A DNA stretch of 24,752 nucleotides from a virus. Positions 1 through 23,854 of the stretch are shown piece after piece; position 1 is the first letter of the stretch, and each line of letters begins with the position of its first letter. Where the stretch lies: IMG/VR virus record IMGVR_UViG_3300026075_000336, positions 1 to 24,752 of that record. One strand, written 5' to 3'. Made by a program: the position numbers and the translations under genes. The notes beneath the pieces were generated by a model. That model did not search any database and was not told the DNA's origin. It saw only the letters and a list, made by a program, of their open reading frames with translations.

Positions 1-318
1 TCCTGAGGCATTCTTATATCTCCCGCGATATTGGGCTGCCGGTCGTTGTACATCTGCTGCAAGTTCCCAACTAGGCTGTCCCCTATCAAGCTTTTCAGCC
101 TCACGATAGAACCTAGCAACACTCTGCCTAATATTGGTAGGATTAGGATAAAGAGATCGCCTTTCCTGCCGCCAACCCGCACTATCCCTATCCCCACCAC
201 TAGGGTTTGTGAAATTGGATTCAATCCGTCCTGTTTCCAGAGCAGCCTTGACGTGCCGCTTATTGCGGCCCCTGCCCTGACGTAAGATTTCTTTGATTAC
301 AGCGTTTGACTTAGCCAT
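1..318 (-). CDS. Lysozyme/transglycosylase-like virion protein, N-terminal part (runs off left edge)
   Basis: Open from an ATG at 318 to the window edge, giving 106 visible residues. The N-terminus is MAKSNAVIKEIL. Residues 25-53 contain an E28/E33-S34 pair, then GDRDSAGWRQE, which resembles the E-S ... S-x-G-L-x-Q pattern of lytic transglycosylase/goose-lysozyme-like domains. The next part, with YPNP, an arginine/tyrosine helix and a DVQRPAAQYRGRY-type end, is a form I recognise from phage virion lysozyme domains. It is the last visible gene of the ejection module, so it may be the peptidoglycan-cutting ejection protein, in the place of T7 gp16. An in-frame TGA at 343-345 leaves ATG 318 as the only canonical start. 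No good SD precedes it, and the start codon lies inside a plus-strand promoter. Total length is unknown. Confidence 0.75.
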   Translation of the reverse strand, partial: MAKSNAVIKEILRQGRGRNKRHVKAALETGRIESNFTNPSGGDRDSAGWRQERRSLYPNPTNIRQSVARFYREAEKLDRGQPSWELAADVQRPAAQYRGRYKNASG

Positions 319-333
319 GAAGTGTGGTACAAT
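306..333 (+). promoter_or_regulatory. Putative sigma70-type promoter on the plus strand
   Basis: TTGACT (306-311) and TACAAT (328-333) each match five of six consensus bases and are 16 bases apart. Transcription would start near 340 and run rightwards, against the late genes. It is followed by a strong SD, a seven-codon ORF and a hairpin with a U-rich tail. The start codon of the lysozyme-like gene (316-318, minus strand) lies in the spacer. Confidence 0.55.
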
Positions 334-348
334 CCCGGTACCTCAATC

Positions 349-381
349 GGAGGTCATATGCAATCGGTACCTGGCTCTTAG
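349..381 (+). other. SD plus seven-codon ORF (leader-peptide-like)
   Basis: GGAGG at 349-353 stands four bases before ATG 358. The frame reads M-Q-S-V-P-G-S and stops at TAG 379-381. The stop abuts the terminator-like hairpin that begins at 380. The unit could be a leader peptide, a tiny gene, or chance within a small RNA of about 80 bases (340-418). Function is unknown. Confidence 0.35.
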
Positions 382-418
382 CCCCGGTGGATCGCGTTCT
401 GCTGGGGCTTTGAGTTTT
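380..418 (+). terminator. Intrinsic terminator acting on the plus strand
   Basis: The stem pairs 380-391 with 398-409 (12 pairs, beginning AGCCCC/GGGGCT) around a six-base loop, followed by a TTTGAGTTTT tail. Three pairs are G-U wobbles in plus-strand RNA and become A-C mismatches in minus-strand RNA. The minus orientation also has no U tail, so the structure is specific to plus transcripts. It ends just before the stop codon of the 913-residue late gene at 419. Confidence 0.6.
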
Positions 419-3160
419 CTAGGGACTGTCGTAAAGACTTTTCTGCTTAGTAGTCTTAGTATCGTATAGAGACTTCTGCTTAGTCTCCTGAGTATCAAAG
501 AGAGACTTAGCTTTCTTCTTCTTCCCTTCCTTGGACTTAACCTGTACGAATGGGTTCGTGAAGGCATCAAGAATTTCCCCGCCGGATTTAAGCTTAACAA
601 TCTCCTTGGGTGTACGTGCCCCCTGTGCTGCATATCTATCAGAAGGTCCAAAGATTTGCTGTGAACCAGGGGTAATACCCTCAAGTAAGGTAAGAGCAGC
701 GGCAATGGATAACTGATTCGGGTCTAATGGAGTCCCGTCAGGGTTCTTAACCTTCTGACCCTTCCAGTTAATCTCATGTGCTGCTAAGTTGTATGCACCC
801 TCAAGCTGAGGGAGTAATGAAGTAGCTAGTGTGTCAGGGAATCCAGCAGAGAAAGCGAATGGAGTGTATCTAGTTGGGAATCGAGCGGAACCATCTTTCG
901 TTGGTACAGAACCACGAAGGAAAGAAGGTAAAGCGCCCTTCACGAATGCGTTTAGTCCCTTATCCTTCAACCACTCATCAACGTAAGGTTGGGATGAAGC
1001 GACGGCTGCGGTTAGTACCGGATGATCTTTTGGAAGATAACGGTAGAGCCAATTCAAAGAGTTCATGGTCCAAGCAATGAACGGAGTATAGTTTGCAATC
1101 GCTCTACGCATTTCGGGAGAGAATTTCCCATACTTGCCGTACATACGATCTACTGATCTACCTAAGGCCACTTGATTATGGGTTTCTCTCATACCCTTGG
1201 CCGCATCTGCAATGGCTGCTTTGGAAGTCTTTAGTACGTGACCATCCATTAAGGGATTACGAGCTAGTTCTTTGCCGAGCATCCCCGTCTGGAAGAAAGA
1301 CTCAGCCTTGCCAGATAAAGTACCCATTGTAAAGTCTGTGACATTATTCCATACATCTGCTGTCTGCTTAGGGCCATAAGGATTATCGCGGAACTTCTGT
1401 ACTTTTCTAACGGTATCTGCAAGAAATGTATGTCCTGTAACGTCGTGTCGTGTTTCTTCCGGTAGGCGAGCCTGCATGGCTAAGTGACCACCCTTAGTGG
1501 CATGGCCTGTCATTTCAGCGTATGCCTTTGGATCAATCTCCTTCAATTCCTTAAGAGCTTTATACCCACGAATGTAGGCAGTTGGTCCTACACCGGATAC
1601 AACGGAACGTAAAGCAGCTTCGATTACGTTACCCGTATACCATGTGGGGTGTAAGGCTAGAACGTTCTTACGCCACAATGTATTGTACCCCTTAGCAATA
1701 GCTCCAACAGGACCGATTTCAGTCTTAGCCTCATGCTGTTTAAGACGTTGAACCATAGTCTCAGGGACTACAGCATAACCACCCTTGACTTGATAGGGAG
1801 TGAAAGCAACCTTAGTTGAAGGATGAGCGTTGTATCTATTGGCGGCTGCTACAGCTTTACCAAAGTCCTTATGGAGTTCTAGCTTACCGCTCGCCGGTTT
1901 GACTAGTTGGGCACCACCACCAGGCTTGGCTACATAATGGGGACGTTCTAACAGTCCCATTCCTTCAGCAATAGCTAACTTCTGCTCGTCGCGTACCTTC
2001 TTCTGTGTTTTCTTAGCAAGTAAGGCCGCTTCATTGATCGCTTCCTTCTTTCCAACGACTTTCTTCCGTGCCCGGTAAGTCTTTCTATATGTGGTGGCTT
2101 GGGCGCGTCTGGATAAGTCCTCCATAAGTGCGACTTGTTCATCTACACGAGTCTCAATGTGTTTGTCCTCAACTTGTCCTTGTTTCTTTGAATCTCTCTT
2201 AGCCTTGAAATATGACTTGGAACGCGGAGCTACTTCCTTCATAGCTGTACCGGGAAGTTCCTTGACTACCGCTTCAGGCATCTTCCCTGCACGTCTAGCC
2301 ACACCACCGGCAATCATGCCCGGACCCCTAGGAATAGGAGCCACAGTCAGAGCCGTTGAGAGGGGACGTTTCTTGAAGGTGTCACTTACACCCTGTAGTC
2401 CCTTATCCCCATAAGCCTTAACGTATTCTTTGGGGAGACTGATAGCTGCTTCACCCGCACGCTTGCCCGACTCTAAGTAAGCCTTAGGACTAGTAGGATG
2501 CTCATAAGCAGGTTTAGCGATATGGACAGTAGAAGGAACAATCTCACCTGGGATATTGACAGCTTCTCTAGCTGCGTTTTCCAATACTTTGCCTGAGTAA
2601 CCAAGAGACCTACCAGGGTGGATCGCCGCTGCAATGACTTTCTCTTGGTGGAAGGGGAGATGTGCCGCCGCGAACTGGAAGGCATTGGGTCCCTTTTTCT
2701 TAGGCTTATTGAATCGTGCTGCTGTCTTTAAATCCGCGTCAGTGACAACATCATGTTGAGCTTTGCCTTTTTCCAACTCGCGTCTACGAGCAGTACGAGT
2801 AGAATGTTCCTTTTGGATAACTCGATGTTCAATTGAATGGGGAGCACCCTTTAGGAGAGCCTGCTTGCGTGCTGGTGAAGCCGCGTGGTATGCTTCCCGT
2901 ACGGCCTTCCTATAGGCAGGAGTTTTCTTAAACTTCTTTGCACGGTTTAGATCACTAGCTGATTTTGTGTCGCCAGTGGAAGGCTTATATGCAGGACGAC
3001 GACCACGTTTCAGATCGTTTTTAGTATCTCCATGAGATGCGGGAGCAGGTTTCGCATAAGGAAACTTCCGCATATTGGGAGGGGCCTGAACACCTAATTT
3101 GGGTTTAGGCTTAGGTCGTTTATACCGTTTTGGTTTCTTAACGTCTGAAGGAAGAGGCAT
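419..3160 (-). CDS. Large internal virion/DNA ejection protein candidate (913 aa)
   Basis: A 913-residue basic protein. Residues 1-160 are rich in K, R and P. A Lys/Arg-rich helical stretch spans about 310-400. A segment around 485-720 with W-R-K-N (496-499), HPTWYTGN (504-511) and YTPFIAW (691-697) resembles conserved parts of large internal proteins in other phages. The C-terminus carries three tandem KSL(F/Y)D(T/S) units (from about 884). Its place between the 432-residue protein and the lysozyme-like protein fits an ejection protein such as T7 gp15/gp16; this is inferred from context and not from a recognised family. No SD precedes ATG 3160, which lies one base from the TTG start of a divergent plus-strand gene. 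M30 is an alternative start, also without an SD. Confidence 0.7.
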   Translation of the reverse strand: MPLPSDVKKPKRYKRPKPKPKLGVQAPPNMRKFPYAKPAPASHGDTKNDLKRGRRPAYKPSTGDTKSASDLNRAKKFKKTPAYRKAVREAYHAASPARKQALLKGAPHSIEHRVIQKEHSTRTARRRELEKGKAQHDVVTDADLKTAARFNKPKKKGPNAFQFAAAHLPFHQEKVIAAAIHPGRSLGYSGKVLENAAREAVNIPGEIVPSTVHIAKPAYEHPTSPKAYLESGKRAGEAAISLPKEYVKAYGDKGLQGVSDTFKKRPLSTALTVAPIPRGPGMIAGGVARRAGKMPEAVVKELPGTAMKEVAPRSKSYFKAKRDSKKQGQVEDKHIETRVDEQVALMEDLSRRAQATTYRKTYRARKKVVGKKEAINEAALLAKKTQKKVRDEQKLAIAEGMGLLERPHYVAKPGGGAQLVKPASGKLELHKDFGKAVAAANRYNAHPSTKVAFTPYQVKGGYAVVPETMVQRLKQHEAKTEIGPVGAIAKGYNTLWRKNVLALHPTWYTGNVIEAALRSVVSGVGPTAYIRGYKALKELKEIDPKAYAEMTGHATKGGHLAMQARLPEETRHDVTGHTFLADTVRKVQKFRDNPYGPKQTADVWNNVTDFTMGTLSGKAESFFQTGMLGKELARNPLMDGHVLKTSKAAIADAAKGMRETHNQVALGRSVDRMYGKYGKFSPEMRRAIANYTPFIAWTMNSLNWLYRYLPKDHPVLTAAVASSQPYVDEWLKDKGLNAFVKGALPSFLRGSVPTKDGSARFPTRYTPFAFSAGFPDTLATSLLPQLEGAYNLAAHEINWKGQKVKNPDGTPLDPNQLSIAAALTLLEGITPGSQQIFGPSDRYAAQGARTPKEIVKLKSGGEILDAFTNPFVQVKSKEGKKKKAKSLFDTQETKQKSLYDTKTTKQKSLYDSP
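422..511 (-). repeat. Tandem C-terminal repeat KSL(F/Y)D(T/S) x3
   Basis: The last 30 residues of the 913-residue protein are three units of 11, 11 and 8 residues. The cores KSLFDT, KSLYDT and KSLYDS are at residues 885, 896 and 907, separated by Q-E-T-K-Q or T-T-K-Q linkers. They could be short binding motifs for a virion partner; that role is inference. Confidence 0.85.
3099..3126 (+). promoter_or_regulatory. Weak candidate promoter for the 3162 plus-strand gene
   Basis: TTGGGT (3099-3104) and TATACC (3121-3126) are 16 bases apart on the plus strand, inside the N-terminal coding region of the 913-residue gene. Consensus match is modest (3/6 and 4/6). Support comes from context: an SD, an ORF and a terminator follow in the same orientation. 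Confidence 0.3.
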
Positions 3161-3161
3161 T

Positions 3162-3353
3162 TTGCATTACGAGGTTAGTAAACTTAATTGGAGCAAGTTC
3201 AAGTTCTTTGAAGAGTCCATTGTCTACTTAGGTAAGGATGATACGGCAGAGCATCCTACGGCTTCTATGAAGTTATCGGGTCCTGCTGTTGCTACTTACA
3301 CACGAGAGAAGGATAAGCCAATCAAGGTGGTCTGTAATCCCATCACTCAATGA
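3162..3353 (+). CDS. Small plus-strand protein (63 aa), unknown
   Basis: TTG 3162 is preceded by AAGGAAGAGG (3148-3157), with AGAGG four bases from the start. The 63-residue product starts MHYEVSKLNWSKFKF and ends KVVCNPITQ; it is mixed alpha/beta in look with no family I can name. Evidence that it is real: the frame has a protein-like residue mix, the SD is strong, and a clean intrinsic terminator (3359-3384) begins five bases after the stop. It runs against the late operon. Its start lies two bases from the start of the 913-residue gene on the other strand, so each gene's upstream region lies inside the other's coding sequence. A longer frame from 3099 exists but lacks an SD. Confidence 0.65.
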   Translation: MHYEVSKLNWSKFKFFEESIVYLGKDDTAEHPTASMKLSGPAVATYTREKDKPIKVVCNPITQ

Positions 3354-3358
3354 CATAT

Positions 3359-3384
3359 CTATAGCGCAATCGCTATAGTTTGTT
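3359..3384 (+). terminator. Intrinsic terminator after the 3162 plus-strand gene
   Basis: A perfect eight-base stem, CTATAGCG (3359-3366) and CGCTATAG (3371-3378), has a CAAT loop and is followed by TTTGTT. It lies directly after the plus-strand stop codon. The minus orientation has only a weak T-rich tail. Beyond it, 3385-3499 is GC-rich and hairpin-prone (for example GACCC/GGGTC near 3445-3460) with no gene seen. Confidence 0.75.
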
Positions 3385-3499
3385 AATAACCGAATTCCAG
3401 TGTGAGACAGAACGGGCGTCTAAGGGACTCCGAGACCCAACCGAGGGTCAGGGGTAAGGGTCGGCCTGAATTGCCGGGAGAGGGGCCGGAAGGGGCCTC

Positions 3500-4798
3500 T
3501 CAGTCGAAGGGGTTCACCAAGCCCTTGGCCTTGCTGCCTTTCTTGCTATGAGACCTTCTCCATTCGGTATATGTAGGGATACCAAGGGCTTTAGCAATCT
3601 CTGTAGCTTTGAAACCAGCCTTTTGTAATCTACGCGCGGTTTCCCGAGAAAGATGCTTGTCATACTGAGCATCTAATGCAGCACTTACTAAGACTGGTTC
3701 AGGAGCCTTAGCGTCAGAAAGAATCTTTTTAGCTGCATCATGGCGACTAATACCCTTGAAATCCTTAGAGCCAAGAATCTGTTTAGTTTGACTAGCTCGA
3801 CTTGCGCCCTGACCACGTTGATTAGGAGTTCTCCAATCAAACTCAGTACCCTTATCCTTAGGAGTCTTTCCACCACGGATTAAAGCTGACCGCTGTTGAG
3901 GTTTGAGAGCCTGCCAATCATCTAATGAGTAACCGTACTTAGCAGCCTGCTTGATTGCTTCCTCTTTTTCGATACGACCAAGAGACTTAGGCTTAGTACC
4001 GGAACGAGTCTGTGCTTCTTGAATTCTCTTAGCTCTACCCTTAGGACCAAGTAATGCCCAATCGTGAGGGCTGAAGCCATGCTTAGAAGCCTGCTTACTA
4101 AACTCTTTCTCGTAGGTGGTTTCAGACTTAGGCGTGTTCTTAGCTTCGATACGCTTGGTCTTAGCATCCTCAACATCAAGACCAAATTGTTTAGCTGCTA
4201 GTGAGTTCTCAAACTCAGACTGTCTACGCTTCTCTGTGTAGGTTGAAGCGAAGTCACCCTTACGACGCGCTAAGTCTGTACGTGCCTTGCCTACCTGCTC
4301 ATACTTCTGATTACGAGAGAGCGTAGCTACACCTTGCATCTCAGTGTTTCTAGTCTGTGCTGCGCCCTGCTGTTGGATCAATGCACCCTGAATAGCTTTA
4401 ACAATGTTGTTTCTAGCATCTGCCGCTTTTTGGCCTTCAGGAGTTTGACTATGGACTGCTTCAGCTAATGAGGAAGCCTGATTCTGTAATCCCTGATACT
4501 GAGTTGTGGTCTGTGTCTGAAGTCCCTGTAGCTTCTTCAGGTAATCATCATACCAAGCAGGGATTTGATTCTGCGTTGTATTTAAGTCTTGTTCTTCAGG
4601 ACCAAACTCCTGATTGACCGCTGCTGCGCGTTCTTTTCGGAAGTCTCCAACACTAGTCATTCCACCAGGAAAGAAAGGCTCTTGAAGCCGATCAGTCGGA
4701 CGACCCCTGCGATTCTTTTTCTTATTCTTTTTATGTCCGTGGGGGATACGCCCTTGACCTTGGCGTCTGTTTCCTGTAGGGTGGGGGTCTCTAATCAT
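3500..4798 (-). CDS. Internal virion/ejection protein candidate with internal repeats (432 aa)
   Basis: ATG 4798 overlaps the previous stop in an ATGA junction, with GAGGAAG just upstream. The 432-residue product has a basic N-terminus (1-45) and a long Q/A/K-rich, probably helical region (60-230). Two related units follow at 231-265 and 277-308, sharing the pattern K-x-A-x-K-x-G-(F/Y)-S-x-x-D-W-x-x-L-x-P. A helix-turn-helix-like stretch at 386-408 (TARRLQKAGFKATEIAKALG) comes near the end. Such low-complexity helical proteins before a lysozyme-like gene fit podovirus internal core proteins; the specific role is inference. Confidence 0.7.
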   Translation of the reverse strand: MIRDPHPTGNRRQGQGRIPHGHKKNKKKNRRGRPTDRLQEPFFPGGMTSVGDFRKERAAAVNQEFGPEEQDLNTTQNQIPAWYDDYLKKLQGLQTQTTTQYQGLQNQASSLAEAVHSQTPEGQKAADARNNIVKAIQGALIQQQGAAQTRNTEMQGVATLSRNQKYEQVGKARTDLARRKGDFASTYTEKRRQSEFENSLAAKQFGLDVEDAKTKRIEAKNTPKSETTYEKEFSKQASKHGFSPHDWALLGPKGRAKRIQEAQTRSGTKPKSLGRIEKEEAIKQAAKYGYSLDDWQALKPQQRSALIRGGKTPKDKGTEFDWRTPNQRGQGASRASQTKQILGSKDFKGISRHDAAKKILSDAKAPEPVLVSAALDAQYDKHLSRETARRLQKAGFKATEIAKALGIPTYTEWRRSHSKKGSKAKGLVNPFD

Positions 4799-4983: not shown

Positions 4984-5253
4984 ATGGACCTTATTGCGCA
5001 TTGCCAGGTCGAACTATGCGCCAACTGCGAGGCCGGGCGAACGAAGCGGCCCTACATCGAGTGCCAGCACATCGGCCCCGATGACGCAGGAGCGGTGATC
5101 GAGTTCGTCCGCGCCGACCTCCACCGGGGGGCCGTAGAGGCGTTACGTCAGTTCGGGGCGCACAAGGGAACCTGCGCATGGTGGATTGCCAAAGGTGCTG
5201 CGCCGTGCGATTGCGGGCTGTTTGCGACCCTCGACCGCCTCGGGGGGCAGTAA
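4984..5253 (+). CDS. GC-rich cysteine-motif protein (89 aa), likely acquired
   Basis: ATG 4984 follows GGAG (4972-4975) at eight bases. The product has C12-x2-C15, C27-Q-H29 and a second cluster C64 ... C75-D-C77-G, so it may bind zinc; no named family is recognised. Base composition jumps here: 5041-5100 has 39 of 60 G/C against 28 of 60 at 4861-4920. It opens a plus-strand cassette with the 5253 gene and two tRNAs, and is divergent from the 53-residue late gene. Opposite orientation and composition suggest horizontal gain of a moron-type gene. Confidence 0.75.
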   Translation: MDLIAHCQVELCANCEAGRTKRPYIECQHIGPDDAGAVIEFVRADLHRGAVEALRQFGAHKGTCAWWIAKGAAPCDCGLFATLDRLGGQ

Positions 5254-5432
5254 TGAAGCCTAAGTCAATTGTAGATGAGTGTGAGGACCTTCGACACTGG
5301 AATAGAGTCTTGTTAAAGGAAGTAGACGATCTTACGAGACAGAATAAAAAGCTTTGGGATAGTAATGCTGAACTAGCAGAATTAGTTGAAGAGTTGCAGG
5401 AAAGGCTAGAAGAGGCCGGTGTGGTGGAATAG
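5253..5432 (+). CDS. Coiled-coil protein (59 aa), unknown
   Basis: The ATG at 5253-5255 overlaps the previous stop (TAATG). The product starts MKPKSIVDECEDL and is almost wholly a charged heptad-type helix, ending EELQERLEEAGVVE, so a dimerising coiled coil is likely. G-rich sequence before the start may act as SD, or translation may be coupled. Base composition returns to that of the late genes, unlike the gene before it. Its last 18 bases (5415-5432) are also the acceptor and D-stem start of tRNA-Leu. Confidence 0.65.
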   Translation: MKPKSIVDECEDLRHWNRVLLKEVDDLTRQNKKLWDSNAELAELVEELQERLEEAGVVE

Positions 5433-5498
5433 GCAGACACGAAGGACTTAAAATCCTTTGTCCGTAAGGACGTACAGGTTCGATCCCTGTCACCGGCA
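5415..5498 (+). tRNA. tRNA-Leu (UAA)
   Basis: A full class II cloverleaf is present. The acceptor GCCGGTG (5415-5421) pairs with CACCGGC (5491-5497), with discriminator A5498. The anticodon stem AAGGA/TCCTT encloses loop CTTAAAA with anticodon TAA at 5449-5451. A long variable arm (about TGTCCGTAAGGACGT) and a T arm with GGTTCGATCC follow. CCA is not encoded. The tRNA overlaps the 3' end of the coiled-coil gene. Confidence 0.95.
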
Positions 5499-5516
5499 TC
5501 GGGCATTACTTCCCCA

Positions 5517-5589
5517 GCCCCCGTAACTCAGTGGCTAGAGTTCCTGACTTTTAATCAGGGAGCCGTAGGTTCGAATCCTACCGGGGGTA
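5517..5589 (+). tRNA. tRNA-Lys (UUU)
   Basis: The acceptor GCCCCCG (5517-5523) pairs with CGGGGGT (5582-5588; one G-U pair), with discriminator A5589. The anticodon stem CCTGA/TCAGG encloses CTTTTAA with anticodon TTT at 5550-5552. The T arm is GTAGG-TTCGAAT-CCTAC. CCA is not encoded. It lies 18 bases after tRNA-Leu, probably on one transcript. Both tRNAs read codons ending in A (and G by wobble). Confidence 0.95.
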
Positions 5590-5764
5590 TCCAACTACTC
5601 ATACGAGTATGAATCTCTTCAAGCTTACGATCACAGTCAATATAGTAACCCTGATCGTAGAGTTCTTTGGCTTCCATACCCATCTTTAGAACAGCTTCCT
5701 TGCGTTGCATATCCATTAAGCTCTTGATAGGAAGGTAATCCCACATATGTTTACAGTTGCTCAT
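5555..5764 (-). CDS. Small helical protein (69 aa), C-terminus antisense to tRNA-Lys
   Basis: Runs from ATG 5764 with N-terminus MSNCKHMWDYLPIKSLMDMQ and a K/E-rich helical body (RKEAVLKMGMEAKELYDQGY). About the last 11 residues (PPVGFEPTAP type) are read from the antisense of tRNA-Lys, a typical artefact sequence. The original C-terminus was therefore probably replaced when the tRNA cassette entered. It lies between the 182- and 53-residue late genes. Its start codon overlaps that of the plus-strand zinc-ribbon gene (CATG). No SD is visible. Confidence 0.55.
   Translation of the reverse strand: MSNCKHMWDYLPIKSLMDMQRKEAVLKMGMEAKELYDQGYYIDCDRKLEEIHTRMSSWIPPVGFEPTAP
5724..5751 (+). promoter_or_regulatory. 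Candidate promoter for the zinc-ribbon gene
   Basis: TTGATA (5724-5729) and TATGTT (5746-5751) are 16 bases apart on the plus strand, matching 5/6 and 4/6 of the sigma70 consensus. Transcription would start near 5758, about five bases before ATG 5763, so the mRNA would be leaderless or nearly so. This would explain why that gene has no SD. Confidence 0.4.
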
Positions 5765-5972
5765 GTATAAAGGTCAGAAGTTAAAGAAGTGTCCTAAGTG
5801 TGGAGCGGACGAAGGATTGATTAAATGTCCTGTGTGTCATAATCCTGAGAACGGTAGACTTACCAGTAAGGGTATTGGACTATATCGAGACTGGCAGATT
5901 TGGCCTAAAGAGAAGCCAGTTCCTCAATCGGAACAGTCTGAATGTCCCTCTTGCGGCGAAGATAGTTCTTGA
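5763..5972 (+). CDS. Zinc-ribbon protein (69 aa)
   Basis: Three CxxC knuckles are visible: CPKC (10-13), CPVC (22-25) and CPSC (61-64). The first two are spaced like a zinc ribbon and the third is at the extreme C-terminus. Partner and role are unknown; small zinc-ribbon proteins of phages may act on transcription or bind nucleic acid. The ATG at 5763-5765 has no SD; a TTG at 5757 is in frame. The gene fills the gap between two late genes on the opposite strand and its last 68 bases overlap the 3' end of the 182-residue gene. Confidence 0.75.
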   Translation: MYKGQKLKKCPKCGADEGLIKCPVCHNPENGRLTSKGIGLYRDWQIWPKEKPVPQSEQSECPSCGEDSS

Positions 5973-23600: not shown

Positions 23601-23854
23601 TTAGTGGGCCTGGGACAAGTAGCGTTCTTTTTAAAATACCTACTAGATGCAACACCGAATTGGTCGCATCGTCTAATCAACCATTCGGAACACTCGGGAG
23701 AGTTGATCCAACCTCCCGCCGCTCTCGGCCTCTGTAAGGCCTTGGGAGCCGGACCCTTCCCGTCCCTAGGGGTAGCCGCTCGCTGGGCGGGAGAAGGGCT
23801 GCTAGGGGCCTCTCGACGCATTTCTGAGGGGAGTGAGTCAAGGATGCGGGGCAT
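23591..23854 (-). CDS. Protein upstream of terminase (87 aa), unknown
   Basis: 87 residues from ATG 23854, six bases after the previous stop, with no good SD. The first half is P/A/R/S-rich (high GC); the second (SPECSEWLIRRCDQFGV) is helical. It occupies the place of a small terminase subunit but has no recognised domain. Its last codons overlap the terL frame in the -1 register, so it may be coupled or fused to it. A plus-strand frame over the same bases cannot be wholly excluded. Confidence 0.5.
   Translation of the reverse strand: MPRILDSLPSEMRREAPSSPSPAQRAATPRDGKGPAPKALQRPRAAGGWINSPECSEWLIRRCDQFGVASSRYFKKNATCPRPTKSN

Follow-up and report, generated by a model that had tools for sequence, protein, structure and literature searches.

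At the seam between two minus-strand late genes of an uncultured tailed phage lies a compact series of plus-strand signals, which raises the question of whether this seam holds a gene of its own, what such a gene would produce and on what its product would act. The window analyzed here is the entire 24,752-base virus record IMGVR_UViG_3300026075_000336, a phage fragment with its late genes (terminase, portal, major head protein, virion and tail proteins) on the minus strand. The lysozyme-like gene has its ATG at 318-316 and no clear Shine-Dalgarno (SD) sequence, and 100 nt separate this ATG from the stop (419) of the 913-aa gene, for whose protein a family match was searched and none was found. 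The features of the locus are collected in Table 1.

Table 1. Features at the seam between the lysozyme-like gene and the 913-aa gene
Feature	Position	Strand	Remarks
Lysozyme-like (lysin) gene	1-318	-	Truncated at contig end; candidate antisense neighbor
Sigma70-type promoter, TTGACT-16-TACAAT, extended -10 TG	306-333	+	Overlaps first codons and start region of the lysozyme-like gene (minus)
GGTACC pair and CAATC(CC)GG repeats	330-372		Candidate operator or repeat
Predicted small RNA, ~78 nt	340-417	+	Start at A340 predicted from spacing to the -10
5' hairpin, ACCUC-AAUCG-GAGGU	340-354	+	GGAGG paired at four of its five bases
GGAGG and seven-codon ORF, ATG CAA TCG GTA CCT GGC TCT TAG	349-381	+	Translation putative
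Intrinsic terminator	375-418	+	Core stem 380-409; G-U pairs make it plus-strand-specific
913-aa late gene	419-3160	-	Upstream of lysin gene; stop (419) adjoins plus-strand terminator

Linkage of promoter and terminator

The initial annotation had described a promoter with two five-of-six hexamers, a GGAGG, an ATG with six further codons and a TAG, and a 12-pair hairpin, and had called this arrangement too ordered for a plain gap. All of these elements were found in place on the plus strand between 306 and 418. The -35 (TTGACT, 306-311) and -10 (TACAAT, 328-333) hexamers each match at five of six positions across a spacer of 16 (312-327), inside which the lysozyme-like ATG lies, as had been noted; the extended -10 TG is an addition to that description. 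The promoter was judged against the sigma70-type consensus, from which the preference of the host's own sigma factors may differ.

To place these elements against chance, 2000 dinucleotide shuffles of the window were scanned on both strands, and a T-rich tail was required after the stem. Extended -10 sites of such quality are expected 0.25 times per shuffled window, counting both strands. A promoter matching at least 10 of 12 positions, with a terminator of at least 10 pairs no more than 90 nt downstream, occurred at 0.0005 per shuffled window, a somewhat flattering figure because the criteria were fixed after the unit was known, and one that still leaves a large margin. The same pairing with an extended -10, or with an SD and ORF, occurred in none of the 2000 shuffles. 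A looser scan of positions 1-2000 returned three promoter-like sites against 2.3 expected and two terminator-like sites against 2.0 expected. Single elements are thus ordinary, and the unusual part is the linkage of promoter to terminator, which upholds the view that the seam is more than a plain gap.

The predicted RNA and its terminator

From this promoter, RNA polymerase would start near A340 and stop near 417. The predicted RNA folds at -34.1 kcal/mol (z -3.58), and only one of 200 shuffles was equally stable. Its product would be a stable RNA composed of the 5' hairpin, a mostly open linker (~355-374) and the terminator hairpin. The terminator core has 12 pairs (380-391/398-409), seven of them G-C, and is followed by the T-rich tail TTTGAGTTTTCT, in which the U-tract is interrupted; a further four pairs can form beyond a UU/UU internal loop to lengthen the stem. 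Stem energy is -20.9 kcal/mol on the plus strand vs -10.7 kcal/mol on the minus strand, where the stem is largely broken. Therefore, the stem serves plus transcripts, and the strand asymmetry that had been claimed for it is real. A bidirectional or minus-strand terminator was ruled out, since the minus-strand stem is weak and lacks a U-tract behind it. By stopping transcription here, the terminator would keep the antisense transcript from entering the 913-aa gene.

At the sequence level, two marks of cis-antisense small RNAs are present, namely a promoter of the unit's own on the strand opposite to the flanking minus-strand genes, and a short RNA ending in an intrinsic terminator. The predicted 78 nt agrees with the earlier suggestion of a small RNA some 80 bases long, and both the shuffle statistics and the folding argue for it. 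In a search of all Rfam families, none reached its gathering threshold; the only match was NsiR1 (11.5 bits against a gathering threshold of 39), and matches at a relaxed threshold were at chance level.

Search for relatives

When the unit was searched as exact and gapped DNA patterns, no relative was found in the viral contigs or genome contigs covered, with the exception of L003, which was rejected as its promoter-hairpin pattern sits before an ordinary, unrelated gene. BLAST of the unit against phages and plasmids gave no match, and searches for close relatives through the major head protein, the 913-aa protein and TerL yielded no locus with the seam. With no homologue in the collections searched, selection on the unit cannot be shown.

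A lysozyme-like domain profile reached more distant relatives, with 56 loci recovered at identities of 31-59%. Of the five best records that were tested for it, four encode a related major head protein as well. With the same scan relaxed, an antisense promoter-terminator unit was detected at none of the 56 loci, many of which are GC-rich and distant, so that absence there is not evidence of absence in close relatives. An upstream ORF was readable at 38 loci, and at 23 of these the start of the lysin gene lies inside the end of that ORF or no more than 20 nt from it, the gap sizes being approximate because start codons were chosen mechanically. Gapless examples include TAGTG in L010, TAATG in L007 and the seam of Arthrobacter phage Jasmine, where the overlap is 1 nt. 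Because so many of these loci have little or no gap and none carries the unit, the 100-nt gap looks like the site of an accessory insertion, occupied by the plus-strand unit rather than ancestral.

Possible targets of the RNA

In the late mRNA, the leader that separates the 913-aa and lysozyme-like genes is perfectly complementary to the predicted RNA. This RNA starts 22 nt upstream of the lysozyme-like ATG (predicted start 340, ATG 318), overlaps no coding sequence and extends as far as the edge of the stop (419) of the 913-aa gene. The initial annotation had proposed a regulator of the lysozyme-like gene. The position antisense to the 5' leader of that gene makes this proposal plausible; direct occlusion of the lysin start, in contrast, is unsupported, since accessibility of the start region (-15..+5) in a crude fold of the minus mRNA was unchanged when 340-417 was blocked (0.405 to 0.407). 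RNase III-type processing or a target in trans would be possible alternatives to start occlusion.

The reading that we prefer, and that we hold to have about an even chance of being correct, is a self-contained plus-strand gene for an RNA of ~78 nt that would pair with the leader at the lysin seam and alter processing or translation there. To judge from the cis-antisense RNAs of other phages, such pairing would be the likeliest way for it to act, and the output of lysin might be limited or delayed as a result.

The RNA might instead act in trans, with its open linker pairing to mRNAs of the host or from elsewhere in the phage, or by sequestering a protein, and the lysin seam would then be a tolerated insertion site. 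The order of 5' hairpin, open linker and terminator is a common design among small RNAs, and the RNA neither reaches the lysin start nor alters the predicted accessibility there. In addition, distant relatives without the unit are what accessory cargo would predict, and other plus-strand islands occupy seams in the same contig, one of them with tRNAs. The antisense position alone, however, offers a simpler basis for a target, and we regard action in trans as a tentative and rather unlikely explanation.

A locus with no dedicated function, consisting of a terminator against stray antisense transcription beside a chance promoter, or of an inserted cassette in decay, would fit the interrupted U-tract and the lack of relatives or conservation in the collections searched. 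Nevertheless, the promoter-terminator linkage is rare by chance and every element is intact, which makes this explanation unlikely.

The seven-codon reading frame

The GGAGG (349-353) precedes an ATG at 358-360, and the TAG (379-381) reaches into the terminator stem, overlapping its first bases. One candidate reading is an expressed minigene, in which a short mRNA would yield MQSVPGS and act through the peptide or through ribosome or peptidyl-tRNA effects, the terminating ribosome covering the start of the terminator stem. At -8.8 kcal/mol, the SD pairing is stronger than at any other start surveyed, and an SD, ATG and ORF of such quality occurs in 0.3% of 82-nt stretches, but in 4% under weaker criteria. 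Furthermore, bases 350-353 of the GGAGG have an unpaired probability of 0.01 or less in the predicted RNA, and the seven-codon ORF was found nowhere else in the collections searched, with its codons kept in no relative. Because its SD is paired, the ORF is most likely incidental or secondary; in the folding model its translation is possible and not favored, and the minigene is an improbable account of the unit. The leader peptide that had also been suggested is not supported as an attenuator, given the paired GGAGG and an ORF seen nowhere else in the collections searched; this reading was rejected for want of any plus-strand gene after the terminator to attenuate, as 419-3160 holds a minus-strand gene.

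Repeats within the unit

Two GGTACC sites, at 337 and 366, lie 29 bp apart and are the sole two in the window, where 5.6 are expected. CAATC(CC)GG occurs at 330, 344 and 361. The low total of GGTACC is not special, many palindromic hexamers being missing from the window; its clustering within the unit is. As judged from the sequence, the cluster could be an operator. A more elaborate scheme, in which a compact antisense RNA gene inserted between once-coupled late genes times lysis in an uncultured host, while translation of the seven-codon minigene and the operator-like pair of GGTACC sites add a second layer of control, appears highly improbable to us. A 15/17 match of 335-351 to 5916-5932 was taken as chance.

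Absence of palindromic hexamers is a window-wide pattern (for example, AGATCT occurs 0 times vs 8.2 expected) and suggests avoidance of restriction. Over-represented hexamers are CGCGCG, GCGCGC and CGTACG.

Other features of the window

Additional plus-strand stretches occur among the minus-strand late genes. At 3162-3378 a seam island holds an ORF of 63 aa that has AGAGG as its SD and no family match, and after it come the hairpin CTATAGCGCAATCGCTATAG and TTTGTT; the start of the 913-aa gene beside it, on the minus strand, is without an SD. GC-richer cargo at 4984-5589 comprises tRNA-Leu(taa), tRNA-Lys(ttt), a coiled-coil-like ORF, and an 89-aa ORF with a weak, sub-threshold match to DUF6248. 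An ORF at 5763-5972 has zinc-ribbon-like CxxC pairs (sub-threshold Pfam matches) and overlaps a minus-strand 185-aa gene. An imperfect direct repeat of 27 nt, CGGGAGAGGGGCCGGAAGGGGCCTCTC, is found at 3475-3501 and 23788-23814, 20 kb apart, with the copies 85% alike. Near the contig end, 24280-24500 is purine-rich and repeat-like, with GGATAAGGTAAAG-type and TATGTATG motifs and no evident genes.

Comparison with known systems

Morons are autonomous cargo in phages, made up of promoter, gene and terminator. The unit resembles them in having its own promoter and terminator, in lying between late genes and in being missing from the relatives seen; unlike them it holds no protein gene of usual size, and its cargo would be RNA. 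If the RNA is made, it would suggest that small RNA genes can insert as cargo between tightly packed late genes. To our knowledge, antisense RNAs at the lysis genes of phages are few, and the unit would then provide a compact example, found from sequence alone.

In the sar layout of phage P22, as in the unit described here, the promoter lies at the start of the downstream gene. The sar RNA, of 68/69 nt, is antisense at the ant gene and interferes with initiation of ant translation (PMC12197685). It shares with the unit a similar size, a backward course across an intercistronic gap, an intrinsic terminator and a position antisense to a leader, whereas the target gene and phage differ and no sequence relation is implied; moreover, sar pairs over the ribosome-binding site of its target, which the RNA predicted here does not. 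Phage lambda OOP RNA, of 77 nt, is transcribed from promoter pO to terminator tO, antisense to the mRNA of the opposite-strand operon (cII) (PMC5869508, PMC12197685). It is nearly equal in length to the predicted RNA and likewise has its own promoter and terminator and opposes a phage mRNA, but OOP, which acts through RNase III-dependent cleavage, extends 52 bases into the cII coding sequence at its 3' end, and the predicted RNA lies almost wholly in the intergenic gap. If it acts as proposed, the predicted RNA would do so in the manner of OOP and sar; because it covers neither a target start site nor a coding end, it was not classed as sar-type or OOP-type. PAK_P4as15 of Pseudomonas phage PAK_P4 is an endolysin-associated antisense RNA of ~550 nt that is missing from a related phage (PMC12197685); like the unit it lies antisense at a lysin gene and is absent in a relative, although it is much longer than ~78 nt. 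PAK_P4as15 thus sets a precedent for an antisense RNA at an endolysin gene. The unit described here probably encodes a small antisense RNA, a predicted new example of a kind already known from phages.
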